A DNA stretch of 45,027 bases, from assembly GCA_003228915.1 (NCBI GenBank), contig QIGL01000097.1, positions 1 to 45,027 on the forward strand, read 5' to 3'. The notes under the pieces were generated by a model. That model made no database searches. It was not told where the DNA came from and worked only from the letters and a program-made list of their open reading frames with translations. The translations under genes were made by a program, and so were the position numbers. The stretch is from Acidiferrobacteraceae bacterium (lineage in GTDB: Bacteria > Pseudomonadota > Gammaproteobacteria > Acidiferrobacterales > SZUA-150). Below, piece after piece: positions 11,137 through 19,528 of this stretch; within the stretch, counting starts at the first letter, position 1, and each line of letters begins with the position of its first letter.

Positions 11137-11712
11137 ATGATCATTAATTCTAATTATAAGGCGTCTATAAGAATTGCTTTTGTGGTGATCCTGGCTGTAT
11201 CCGTGGTGGCCCTGTTCCTGCGTTACCAGGAATTAAAGGGTGCCGAAATTTTTCAGCCCGTGCCTCTGCCGGAATTTACCCAGACAAATAAAAACGCCTG
11301 GCTAAATAGCAAGCCCCTACGGGTAAATGACCTCAAGGGCAAAGTGACACTCCTGGATGTCTGGACTTTTGAATGCTGGAACTGTTATCGCTCTTTTCCC
11401 TGGCTCAGGCAAATCGAAAAAAACTTCACTGGTAGTCTCCAGGTTATTGGCATTCACACACCAGAATTCGCCCACGAAAAAATTCGTAAAAATGTGGTCG
11501 CTAAAACCAGTGATTTTGGGCTGCACCACCCGGTCATGATGGATAACGATTTTGCCTACTGGAAGGCGCTGAACAACAGGTATTGGCCGGCATTTTATGT
11601 CATCGATAAAAAAGGAATAATTCGCGGGCGATTTATTGGCGAAATCCATGCTGGTGATCGTAATGCCAGCTCAATCGAAAAACTGGTACGAAAATTGATC
11701 GCTGAAAAGTAA
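11137..11712 (+). CDS. Membrane-tethered thioredoxin-like (TlpA/redoxin) protein
   Basis: A single N-terminal transmembrane helix (residues 11-29) anchors a periplasmic thioredoxin fold of about 150 residues. The redox motif is C80-W-N-C83 in DVWTFECWNCYRS, followed by HTPEFAHEK and the cis-proline region YWPAFYVID, as in TlpA/ResA-like and DipZ C-terminal domains. A role in periplasmic disulfide reduction or redox signalling is likely; the specific partner is unknown. The ATG at 11137 is preceded by GGAACC. No cytochrome biogenesis genes are beside it, so a dedicated role in haem ligation is not supported by context. Confidence 0.88.
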   Translation: MIINSNYKASIRIAFVVILAVSVVALFLRYQELKGAEIFQPVPLPEFTQTNKNAWLNSKPLRVNDLKGKVTLLDVWTFECWNCYRSFPWLRQIEKNFTGSLQVIGIHTPEFAHEKIRKNVVAKTSDFGLHHPVMMDNDFAYWKALNNRYWPAFYVIDKKGIIRGRFIGEIHAGDRNASSIEKLVRKLIAEK

Positions 11713-12328: not shown

Positions 12329-13222
12329 TCACTTCCCATCAGCAGACAAATGCTTGCGAATAAACTTTTCAGTTCTTTGCAGTGAATCTTTGGTTGCCAT
12401 GTCATCGGCCAGGGTACGAATCCGGGGCGGCCGAAAATCAAATCCACGACCGACGCCGGGGTAAATAATCAGCTGCGGTTTTCTGCCCTTCTCCTTCAAA
12501 GTTTCTACGCCAGCCAGTATCGGGCGAAACCGCTGATACTGCTCATGTTCGCCAAAAAATATTAATGCCGGAACTTTTAAATCTTCAATTTCAGGTGCGT
12601 ACTGGTAAACCTGCAATGGTTCAGATTCATTCGGGTCTTGCCAATGGGGGTAATAGGCAACATAACAGGAAACTTTCTTGATTTGTCTTTTGTATGTGAC
12701 TAATGCCTTTAAGGTCATGTAGCCACCCCGGGTATGAGCAACAGTACAGGCCTTGTTACCGATGATATTTGGCAGTTTTAAGAGCGTATCAATACCCTTG
12801 GCAACATCTTTTTCGACCTCATAATCATGATTGAATGGATAAGGATTAATGAATCTGCCGCTCCAGATATCTGGCGCCAATACCACGAACCCCCTGGCGG
12901 CGAGTCGTCTTGGTACCAGCAGTGTCAGGTCATCAAGGCCGCGCCGGCCATGCTGAAATAATACAGGTAAATATTTTCCCGGTTTTTTCGGGCGAAAAAC
13001 ATAAGCTGGAATTTCAGAATCACCACTCTTGTAGGTAATTTCAGTCATGACCACGTCATAGTTGGTCGGTTGTTCTATTTTTCCGTTTTCCCACCAGTCA
13101 TCATTCCACCACAGCTTTTCCTTATCTTGTGGGAATTCAGTTTTTGTCCAGGGCTGATGGATAGCATAAACGAGCTGGGCAGGCATGAATGCCACAAGCA
13201 ACAATATAATAATTTTTTTCAT
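12329..13222 (-). CDS. Secreted dienelactone-hydrolase-like protein with substituted catalytic triad
   Basis: I chose ATG 13222 (MKKIIILLLVAFMPAQLVYA), preceded by AAGGGAGAAATC; an earlier GTG at 13240 is less likely. Residues 1-20 are a signal peptide cleaved after LVYA. The rest is an alpha/beta-hydrolase fold of dienelactone-hydrolase type: VLFQHGRRGLDDL (oxyanion loop), GFVVLAPDIWSG, then VAHTRGGYMT, FFGEHEQYQ and YPGVGRGFDF. The three catalytic positions, normally Cys/Ser, Asp and His, are T164, E227 and R259. I checked the codons (ACC, GAG, CGT). Hydrolytic activity by the usual mechanism is therefore doubtful. It is convergent with the WYL-like gene and has no obvious partner. Confidence 0.87.
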   Translation of the reverse strand: MKKIIILLLVAFMPAQLVYAIHQPWTKTEFPQDKEKLWWNDDWWENGKIEQPTNYDVVMTEITYKSGDSEIPAYVFRPKKPGKYLPVLFQHGRRGLDDLTLLVPRRLAARGFVVLAPDIWSGRFINPYPFNHDYEVEKDVAKGIDTLLKLPNIIGNKACTVAHTRGGYMTLKALVTYKRQIKKVSCYVAYYPHWQDPNESEPLQVYQYAPEIEDLKVPALIFFGEHEQYQRFRPILAGVETLKEKGRKPQLIIYPGVGRGFDFRPPRIRTLADDMATKDSLQRTEKFIRKHLSADGK

Positions 13223-13309
13223 GATTTCTCCCTTGTGCACGATAATACCTTGTATGGTTAAATTTCCCCAATATTCTATCTCAATGTACGGTGAAGTCGT
13301 AACTTTTTA

Positions 13310-14060: not shown

Positions 14061-14360
14061 TTACGCGTGGTTTATGTGGAGGTTTTTAAAGACCGACTCT
14101 GGATCTGCCTGGACAAGCCTTAACAATACTTTTGCGGGGCCTGTTGGATGACGATGTCCTTGTTCCCAATTCTGGAGAGTCCGCATACTTACGCCGATTA
14201 AAACTGCAAACTTCGATTGGGTAAAACCGATATGTTCTCGAATCGCTTTAACATCAGGCTCATCAAATTCAAACTCACGCGAAGCTTTAAGTTCTCCACG
14301 CATGATTTTTCCAGCTTCCCGGACACTATCTAGTAACTCATTGAATTTCTCATCATTCAT
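14061..14360 (-). CDS. HigA2/NadS-type antitoxin, XRE-family HTH
   Basis: The product is 99 residues from ATG 14360 (MNDEKFNELLDSVREAGKIM); an upstream in-frame start at 14381 lies within the toxin gene and is unnecessary. Residues 36-80 are a Cro/XRE helix-turn-helix: IREHIGFTQSKFAVLIGVSM, then RTLQNWEQGHRHPTGPAK, the standard recognition-helix pattern of this antitoxin group. The start overlaps the end of the toxin gene by 8 nt, so the two are translationally coupled. Toxin-first order is typical of higBA. The protein should neutralise the toxin and repress the shared promoter at 14684-14711. Confidence 0.9.
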   Translation of the reverse strand: MNDEKFNELLDSVREAGKIMRGELKASREFEFDEPDVKAIREHIGFTQSKFAVLIGVSMRTLQNWEQGHRHPTGPAKVLLRLVQADPESVFKNLHINHA

Positions 14361-14676
14361 TTTCAAACTCCAGCACAACAATTTTTTGAAGTGTCTTTAA
14401 CTGTTCTTTTGTTAAGTCATCTACTTCATTCTTGGCATAGGCAAATAACATATAAATTTGATCTAAATTTGCTGCCCAATAGTAGATAAAACGTGATCCA
14501 CCTCGCTTACCTCGACCGCTACCACGCCAGCGAATTTTGCGTATTCCACCACTCCCTGAGATTATATTACCTGTATCGGGTTGGTCGATAATCATTGCCT
14601 GAAACTCACGATAATCTTCATCGGTCATTAACTTATTGATTAATTTAGTGAAAATATGAGTTTCTACAATGACCAT
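14353..14676 (-). CDS. HigB2/RelE-type toxin
   Basis: This 107-residue basic protein belongs to the RelE/HigB superfamily. It shows the HigB2-type blocks TDEDYREFQAMI, DTGNIISGSGGIRKIRW, GKRGGSRFIYYW and IYMLFAYAKNEVDDLTKEQ. Family members are mRNA interferases that act on the ribosome. The closest architecture I recall is the higBA2 pair of the Vibrio cholerae superintegron, which is interesting because an integron-type cassette lies 1.9 kb away. The start is ATG 14676, immediately downstream of a strong promoter with an embedded palindrome. No catalytic residue is obviously missing. Confidence 0.9.
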   Translation of the reverse strand: MVIVETHIFTKLINKLMTDEDYREFQAMIIDQPDTGNIISGSGGIRKIRWRGSGRGKRGGSRFIYYWAANLDQIYMLFAYAKNEVDDLTKEQLKTLQKIVVLEFENE

Positions 14677-19144: not shown

Positions 19145-19528
19145 TTAACTGGCTTTTGGTTTTGGATAATATCTCACGCCATCCAGACCTTTAAAATCGA
19201 TGTCCTGGGTCCATAACACGGCCCCATACTTTTGCGCAGTCGCGTATATGATGCTGCCGGCAAGCGGTAATTTGTGCTCAATACCAAAACAAGCAGCATC
19301 AACAGCCAGGCCATTATCCAGTACCACAACTTTTCCTTGCTCCATGTGGGCTATCGCTTCAATTGCCGATTCTTCATTACGCTGGCGCAGGACGCTCTTG
19401 AACACTTCTGTAATGGTGATGCTGGGCACTAATAGTGCCTCAAGTGATTCTATTGGTTTGGCGAATGATCCGGCATTTTTATCACCTGAAAAATAGGACA
19501 ACCATGCCGAAGAATCGACAACATTCAT
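19145..19528 (-). CDS. VapC-type PIN-domain toxin lacking one active-site acid
   Basis: PIN-domain ribonucleases use a cluster of three or four acidic residues to bind metal. This 127-residue protein has D5 (NVVDSSAWLSYF), E41 (TITEVFKS) and D109 (LWTQDIDF). The third position, normally Asp in a P-L-A-D-S-I-I-Y-A-T-A motif, is G91. The codon is GGC at 19256-19258, one base from GAC. Activity may be reduced or lost. The start overlaps the antitoxin stop by 4 nt (ATGA), so the two are translationally coupled. It lies just upstream of the malic enzyme gene on the same strand. Confidence 0.9.
   Translation of the reverse strand: MNVVDSSAWLSYFSGDKNAGSFAKPIESLEALLVPSITITEVFKSVLRQRNEESAIEAIAHMEQGKVVVLDNGLAVDAACFGIEHKLPLAGSIIYATAQKYGAVLWTQDIDFKGLDGVRYYPKPKAS

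Follow-up and report, generated by a model that had tools for sequence, protein, structure and literature searches.

The locus and its product

The window, the entire stretch of 45,027 nucleotides analysed here, carries on its minus strand a gene for a protein with a dienelactone hydrolase (DLH) fold. Its reading frame is uninterrupted over all 297 codons, as the original prediction stated, and an in-frame GTG at 13240 offers an alternative start that would extend the product by six residues. At E <= 0.001 its genome contains one match. The features are listed below with residue counts from 77 scored rows of homologues, 47 from clade A (window included) and 30 from clade B.

12329-13222, minus strand: coding sequence of the DLH-fold protein, 297 aa plus stop codon, with the ATG at 13222 and the stop codon at 12329-12331
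13163-13222, minus strand: residues 1-20 (MKKIIILLLVAFMPAQLVYA), by eye a likely signal peptide
13091-13111, minus strand: Trp-rich N-terminal motif W38-W44 (WWNDDWW), clade A only
12938-12952, minus strand: oxyanion-loop motif H91-G-R-R-G95, in which both clades keep H91 and R94 without exception (77/77)
12827-12829, minus strand: H132, candidate alternative base (76/77)
12746-12748, minus strand: C159, clade A only (A 47/47, B 0/30)
12731-12733, minus strand: T164, nucleophile position in a strand-turn-helix elbow (Thr 44, Ser 33 of 77)
12728-12730, minus strand: R165, directly after the nucleophile position (77/77; other DLHs 0/20)
12665-12667, minus strand: C186, clade A only (A 47/47, B 0/30)
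12644-12646, minus strand: H193, a further candidate for an alternative base, located in the loop that follows strand 184-190 (75/77)
12542-12544, minus strand: E227, acid position in the loop after strand 219-224 (Glu 45, Asp 32 of 77)
12530-12532, minus strand: R231, start of helix 229-244 after the acid loop (77/77)
12446-12448, minus strand: R259, catalytic-histidine position (Arg 77/77; His in 20/20 other DLHs)
12431-12433, minus strand: R264 of the FDFR motif (77/77; other DLHs 0/20)

The Pfam DLH profile PF01738 matches residues 71-291 with 53.1 bits, above its gathering cut-off of 21, which places the protein in this family. The same profile matches 39 of 39 clade A rows at E <= 0.001 and gives 67.4 bits with one clade B protein. 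Hydrophobic N-termini are also present in most clade A rows with a chosen start, and the 29 clade B rows listed start with a signal-peptide-like segment; we infer that the window protein is secreted to the periplasm. In the Trp-rich motif W38 is invariant and W39, W43 and W44 are conserved to at least 90% (39 clade A rows), while the motif was not found in the 20 clade B rows aligned. The two cysteines C159 and C186 could possibly form a disulfide.

Upstream of the gene, at 14061-14676 on the minus strand, a RelE-type toxin (PF06296, 28.2 bits against a cut-off of 27) is followed by an overlapping HTH_3 protein (PF01381), likely a HigBA-like toxin-antitoxin pair. A PIN-domain protein at 19145-19528, also on the minus strand, may be a second toxin of such a pair. 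An AhpC-TSA/Redoxin-like protein is encoded on the plus strand at 11137-11712, about 0.6 kb from the DLH-fold gene; a locus from the same genus (L051) likewise has a 191-aa gene in the corresponding area, a candidate counterpart.

Substitution of the catalytic triad

Enzymes of the DLH family (Pfam PF01738) use a Cys-His-Asp triad. To place the corresponding residues, the window protein was compared with 20 other DLH-like proteins from related genomes, namely the loci among L129-L149 with a hit to the clade A profile at 1e-4. T164, E227 and R259 align with the nucleophile column (16 Cys, 3 Ser, 1 Ala), the aspartate column (20/20) and the histidine column (20/20) of these proteins, respectively. 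The three columns are unambiguous, which rules out a misaligned triad, and they are those at which the original prediction had located the substitutions, with the right numbering. H163 of the HTRGG motif was also considered as a nucleophile and rejected, as it is Ile or Leu in five clade A rows (L011, L016, L017 and both L048 copies).

Across clades A and B, position 259 is Arg in 77/77 rows and His in none, against His in 20/20 other DLHs. None of the 77 rows lacks the hydroxyl at position 164 (44 Thr, 33 Ser) or the carboxylate at position 227 (45 Glu, 32 Asp). The triad substitutions are hence far beyond chance, being fixed or varied only between Thr and Ser and between Glu and Asp. As these exchanges keep the chemical group, only the change from His to Arg alters the chemistry. 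The suggestion that all three catalytic positions are replaced is literally true in comparison with Cys-Asp-His; the stronger notion of three independent losses of catalytic groups does not hold. The expectation that an alignment of homologues would reveal a conserved Thr/Glu/Arg site is borne out across both clades in the form Thr/Ser - Glu/Asp - Arg.

Besides R259, four arginines are found in 77/77 rows, R94, R165, R231 and R264, which are present in 3/20, 0/20, 1/20 and 0/20 of the other DLHs, respectively. Q195, E201 and Q204 are likewise present in 77/77 rows, and three histidines are invariant or nearly so (H91 77/77, H132 76/77, H193 75/77). Arg at the histidine position, the four further arginines, the hydroxyl at 164 and the acid at 227 together define what we refer to as the A+B family; the window protein and all 77 rows have this combination, the definition having been drawn from the same 77 rows that were scored against it. 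The scoring left out six ORFs (L001, L002, L018, L045, L046, L050) that are duplicates, contig-end fragments or the window itself; the copy of genome G001 was kept via L019, the same contig in the public set, and the split copy L041 contributed two rows, each gapped at the other's positions. The A+B family is a distinct, conserved DLH-related family with the triad rebuilt as hydroxyl (Thr/Ser) - carboxylate (Glu/Asp) - arginine.

For dienelactone hydrolase as an enzyme, which we take to be EC 3.1.1.45, a Cys nucleophile, a catalytic His and a catalytic Asp are expected; the window protein has Thr, Arg and Glu at these places and is unlikely to be a dienelactone hydrolase.

Predicted structure and known relatives

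The AlphaFold2 model of the window protein (pLDDT 90.8) shows an intact alpha/beta-hydrolase fold with a nucleophile elbow; together with the PF01738 match, this agrees with the original claim that the DLH fold motifs are kept. According to DSSP, T164 is located between strand 158-163 and helix 165-176, while E227 follows strand 219-224 and R259 lies in the loop after strand 250-254. In a clade B model (L071, pLDDT 90.1) the corresponding residues occupy the same places: S129 follows strand 123-128 and precedes helix 131-141, while D189 and R221 come after strands 181-188 and 211-220, respectively.

The closest relative in the PDB, both by sequence and by fold, is 4zv9 from E. coli O157:H7 (Foldseek E 1.9e-14). 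The structural match has a Z-score of 24.7 with an rmsd of 2.6 over 219 aligned residues and 26% identity, other DLHs being tied within 1 Z. We infer that 4zv9 is YghX. It shares with the window protein the motif YPGV-x-[HR]-GF and the oxyanion-loop arginine (HENRGL against HGRRGL in the window protein), but carries Cys, Asp and His where the window protein has Thr, Glu and Arg. With 40.9 bits against a cut-off of 460 for the YghX model NF041440, the window protein falls outside that family. A weak match to the chlorophyllase family PF07224 is seen in 39/39 clade A rows at E <= 0.001; the window protein itself, however, scores 25.2, just below the cut-off of 26. The PDB matches also include RIB26 of the Tetrahymena ciliary doublet (8g2z chain 3D), a DLH-like fold in a structural setting, which differs from the window protein in being eukaryotic and in having Cys, Asp and His at the triad columns of the HMMER alignment.

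In comparison with the DLH family PF01738 as a whole, the predicted fold, the profile match and the register of the elbow, acid and histidine loops are the same, whereas the exchanges of Cys to Thr/Ser, Asp to Glu (or Asp) and His to Arg in 77 rows, the five invariant arginines, the likely signal peptide and the Trp motif of clade A set the A+B family apart. As far as the accessible part of a survey of alpha/beta-hydrolases goes, the enzyme families compared there have a catalytic histidine coordinated by an acid and a nucleophile (PMC7034887), a pattern from which the A+B family departs. The accessible part of the literature searched contained no description of the A+B family.

Distribution, phylogeny and selection

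Matches at E <= 1e-15 were found in 17 of 96 genomes, including the window's own, and public species genomes gave 32 homologous loci. By their titles, the latter come from Acidiferrobacteraceae, Candidatus Thiodiazotropha, Candidatus Thioglobus, Candidatus Ruthturnera, Chromatiales, Thioalkalivibrio and one Hyphomicrobiaceae, further from unclassified Gammaproteobacteria and from Betaproteobacteria or Burkholderiales. The 47-row alignment of clade A, with the window included and L041 entered as two rows, has T43/S3, E44/D2 and R46 at the three positions, with one gap each. The 39-row alignment contains 48 invariant columns, 29 of which, by our own count, belong to the four active-site loops (oxyanion, elbow, acid, histidine) or to segment 191-206. 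In Thioalkalivibrio sp. ALJ3 two tandem copies (L048:4854-6665) are 94.5% identical, one with Thr and the other with Ser at the nucleophile position. At L041:2391-3459 a stop or frameshift divides the copy into two ORFs; this may be real or an assembly error.

In a phylum-wide sample, a homologue at 1e-25 was present in 3 of 397 genomes, among them the window's own, and the class of another genome, G295, yielded no members beyond G295 itself (1/190 at 1e-20); the A+B family therefore looks rare outside its guild. Among 72,556 plasmid records there were zero matches at 1e-10. The divergent homologue of G278, one of the three carriers in the phylum sample, led to clade B. A search of its relatives gave matches in 60/149 genomes at 1e-12, including G601 (2.8e-15), an ordinary Cys-Asp-His DLH that was counted as outgroup; clade B was scored on 30 loci returned from this search. 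The genomes of this clade are of family f69. Its proteins have the motifs HAKRG, xSRGP (xSRGG in one), GExDFELRR and ARRAFDFR or close variants of them; the Trp-rich motif and the cysteine pair typical of clade A are both missing.

A quick IQ-TREE tree separates clades A and B from other DLHs with an SH-aLRT support of 100 (A 90, B 97), with all Arg-bearing rows on one side of the supported branch. It comprises 74 rows (42 A, 15 B, 17 outgroup), leaving aside three of the 20 outgroup proteins, half of the B rows and several near-copies; support is SH-aLRT without bootstrap, and the tool warned of long branches meeting. The gene is clearly under purifying selection, with a dN/dS of 0.059 against the copy from the same genus and values of 0.09-0.10 in three other pairs (0.059-0.103 over the four pairs). 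The open frame and the dN/dS of 0.059 rule out gene decay, and since the site is in addition conserved across the clades, the original view stands that the protein is functional, its site altered, and that the gene is not in decay.

Gene neighbourhoods

A comparison of 45 clade A loci, in 43 of which the gene was called, revealed no conserved operon. Shared neighbours are common only to near relatives: a gene of family F1 adjoins the DLH-fold gene in six loci (L030-L034, L036), and family F9 occurs in three Thioglobus/Ruthturnera loci. For a wider view, 118 of 119 neighbours within two genes were used, one very long ORF being omitted, with eight near-duplicate loci and ORFs below 90 aa skipped. 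DsrE, rhodanese, AhpC-TSA and Thioredoxin_2 match three each, level with general families such as radical SAM, GTPase and methyltransferases.

Sulfur-type genes (DsrE, rhodanese, Pyr_redox_2, TusA, DrsE_2 or molybdopterin oxidoreductase) lie within about 5 kb of a few clade A copies. DsrE is located at most 2 kb from the gene in three of the 18 carrier genomes, G023, G046 and G031, where 0.20 would be expected (P 0.001); the 2-kb limit was set after seeing the cases, and the distances were compared by eye. All three belong to one subclade of six rows (SH-aLRT 93). The DLH-fold gene of G023 (L057) has a rhodanese gene as its neighbour, with two Pyr_redox_2 genes at 2-4.5 kb and Sulf_transp at about 8.5 kb. 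The cluster at L057:5039-10957 comprises the two Pyr_redox_2 genes, DsrE, an iron alcohol dehydrogenase, the DLH-fold gene and rhodanese, and L060 has DsrE and one relative of these Pyr_redox_2 proteins in a similar order. Separate from the DsrE subclade, the DLH-fold gene of the Betaproteobacteria locus L049 is accompanied by DsrE, DrsE_2 and TusA at distances of up to about 4 kb, with a molybdopterin oxidoreductase about 3 kb away on the other side.

In clade B the gene is divergent to one gene family in 16/20 loci, with a second family close by in 11/20. These families are TonB-like and DsbC, as assigned from one locus (L073). The genes around clade B copies (TonB-like, DsbC and others) give no indication of sulfur oxidation.

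Association with sulfur oxidisers

Three marker genes were searched in 80 chosen genomes, with 14 carriers and 8 non-carriers covered on the side of clade B. SoxB was found in 17/18 clade A carriers and 13/14 tested clade B carriers, and in 18/20 same-order, 5/20 one-per-family class and 8/8 f69 non-carriers. AprA gave 14/18 for A and 14/14 for tested B carriers (non-carriers 19/20 same-order, 4/20 class, 8/8 f69), RuBisCO 15/18 and 13/14 (non-carriers 19/20, 8/20 and 8/8). No RuBisCO match was obtained in the window's own assembly, and with 19/20 same-order and 8/8 f69 non-carriers positive, the RuBisCO association is uninformative within the order and f69.

When families are compared across the class or phylum, the A+B family is found in sulfur oxidisers. 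The SoxB search was extended from the 80 genomes to the other 39 relatives. Among the 39 class relatives taken one per family, SoxB is then present in 4/4 clade A carriers against 6/35 others (Fisher p 0.0026), and in the phylum sample in 3/3 carriers against 73/397 overall (p 0.006; 0.033 without the window's genome). A further 24 non-carriers from the same order or family contain SoxB in 17 cases, one of the 17 below the model cut-off. The carriers are hence sulfur oxidisers, but same-order and f69 non-carriers are positive for SoxB, AprA and RuBisCO as often, so the gene is optional among sulfur oxidisers and the link, which is associative, may reflect lineage rather than function.

Possible function

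As the histidine is missing, the canonical Cys/Ser-His-Asp reaction cannot run as usual. The best reading of the data is a periplasmic DLH-fold protein, either anion-binding or catalytic in an unconventional manner, that is tied to lithotrophic sulfur metabolism. A cationic anion-binding site, with or without unusual chemistry, appears most likely from the conserved residues, and we give it a probability of about 0.5. R259 may be held by E227 and, as the conservation pattern suggests, could form a cationic pocket with T164, the oxyanion loop and R94, R165, R231 and R264. The ligand of such a pocket would be a small anion, with sulfur oxyanions and anionic organosulfur or carboxylate compounds as the most plausible candidates. 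The protein might then deliver or sense this ligand, or convert it by a route other than the classical Ser/Cys-His-Asp mechanism.

A catalyst would likewise fit the retained hydroxyl and acid and the three conserved histidines, and H91, H132 and H193 could be replacements for the lost base. An active hydrolase or transferase may thus be considered, with Thr/Ser164 as the nucleophile, Glu/Asp227 kept, H132, H193 or H91 acting as the base and R259 binding an acidic part of the substrate. The retention of both groups in 77/77 rows through the Thr/Ser and Glu/Asp exchanges, the near-invariance of the three histidines and the tandem Thioalkalivibrio copies with Thr and Ser are consistent with it. 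However, 8/20 other DLHs have a His at position 91 too while their own histidine is intact, and two rows are without H193 and one without H132. This alternative ranks second, clearly less probable than the anion-binding site.

Arginine can act as a general base in a few other enzymes. A new catalytic design of the alpha/beta-hydrolase fold, a Ser/Thr-Asp/Glu-Arg site with which sulfur oxidisers would process a thiosulfonate, a polythionate, an organic sulfur ester or a similar anionic sulfur substrate in their periplasm, is unlikely. In third place, and unlikely as well, comes a structural or protein-protein module without a small-molecule site, whose conserved arginines would attach to a partner or to the cell envelope. 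RIB26 provides a precedent for a DLH-like fold in a structural role, albeit one with Cys, Asp and His in place, and clade A has the extra Trp-rich N-terminal segment; yet 29 of the 48 invariant clade A columns fall in the active-site loops and segment 191-206, and the nucleophile and acid are conserved by chemical type. An ordinary DLH-type esterase with a misread triad, or a decaying gene, is very improbable despite the PF01738 matches in 39/39 clade A rows and 4zv9 as the top solved relative by sequence, given the unambiguous columns, the open frame and the purifying selection.

In the accessible part of PMC5962744, the chemolithotrophs S. limicola and Sulfurifustis variabilis are credited with dienelactone hydrolases, which are counted among 'surprisingly numerous' hydrocarbon-metabolism genes; a proteomics table in the accessible part of PMC6413534 contains one entry labelled 'Dienelactone hydrolase'. 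Pfam puts the same label on 39/39 clade A rows, although the protein probably binds or converts something else. Should the family prove to be an anion-binding or His-free protein of sulfur oxidation, the interpretation of metagenomes is misled by such labels, and a periplasmic component of lithotrophy would have been overlooked. With His replaced by Arg in 77/77 rows and the hydroxyl and acid kept, the family is a clean natural test of whether an alpha/beta-hydrolase site can function or be re-used once its histidine is gone.
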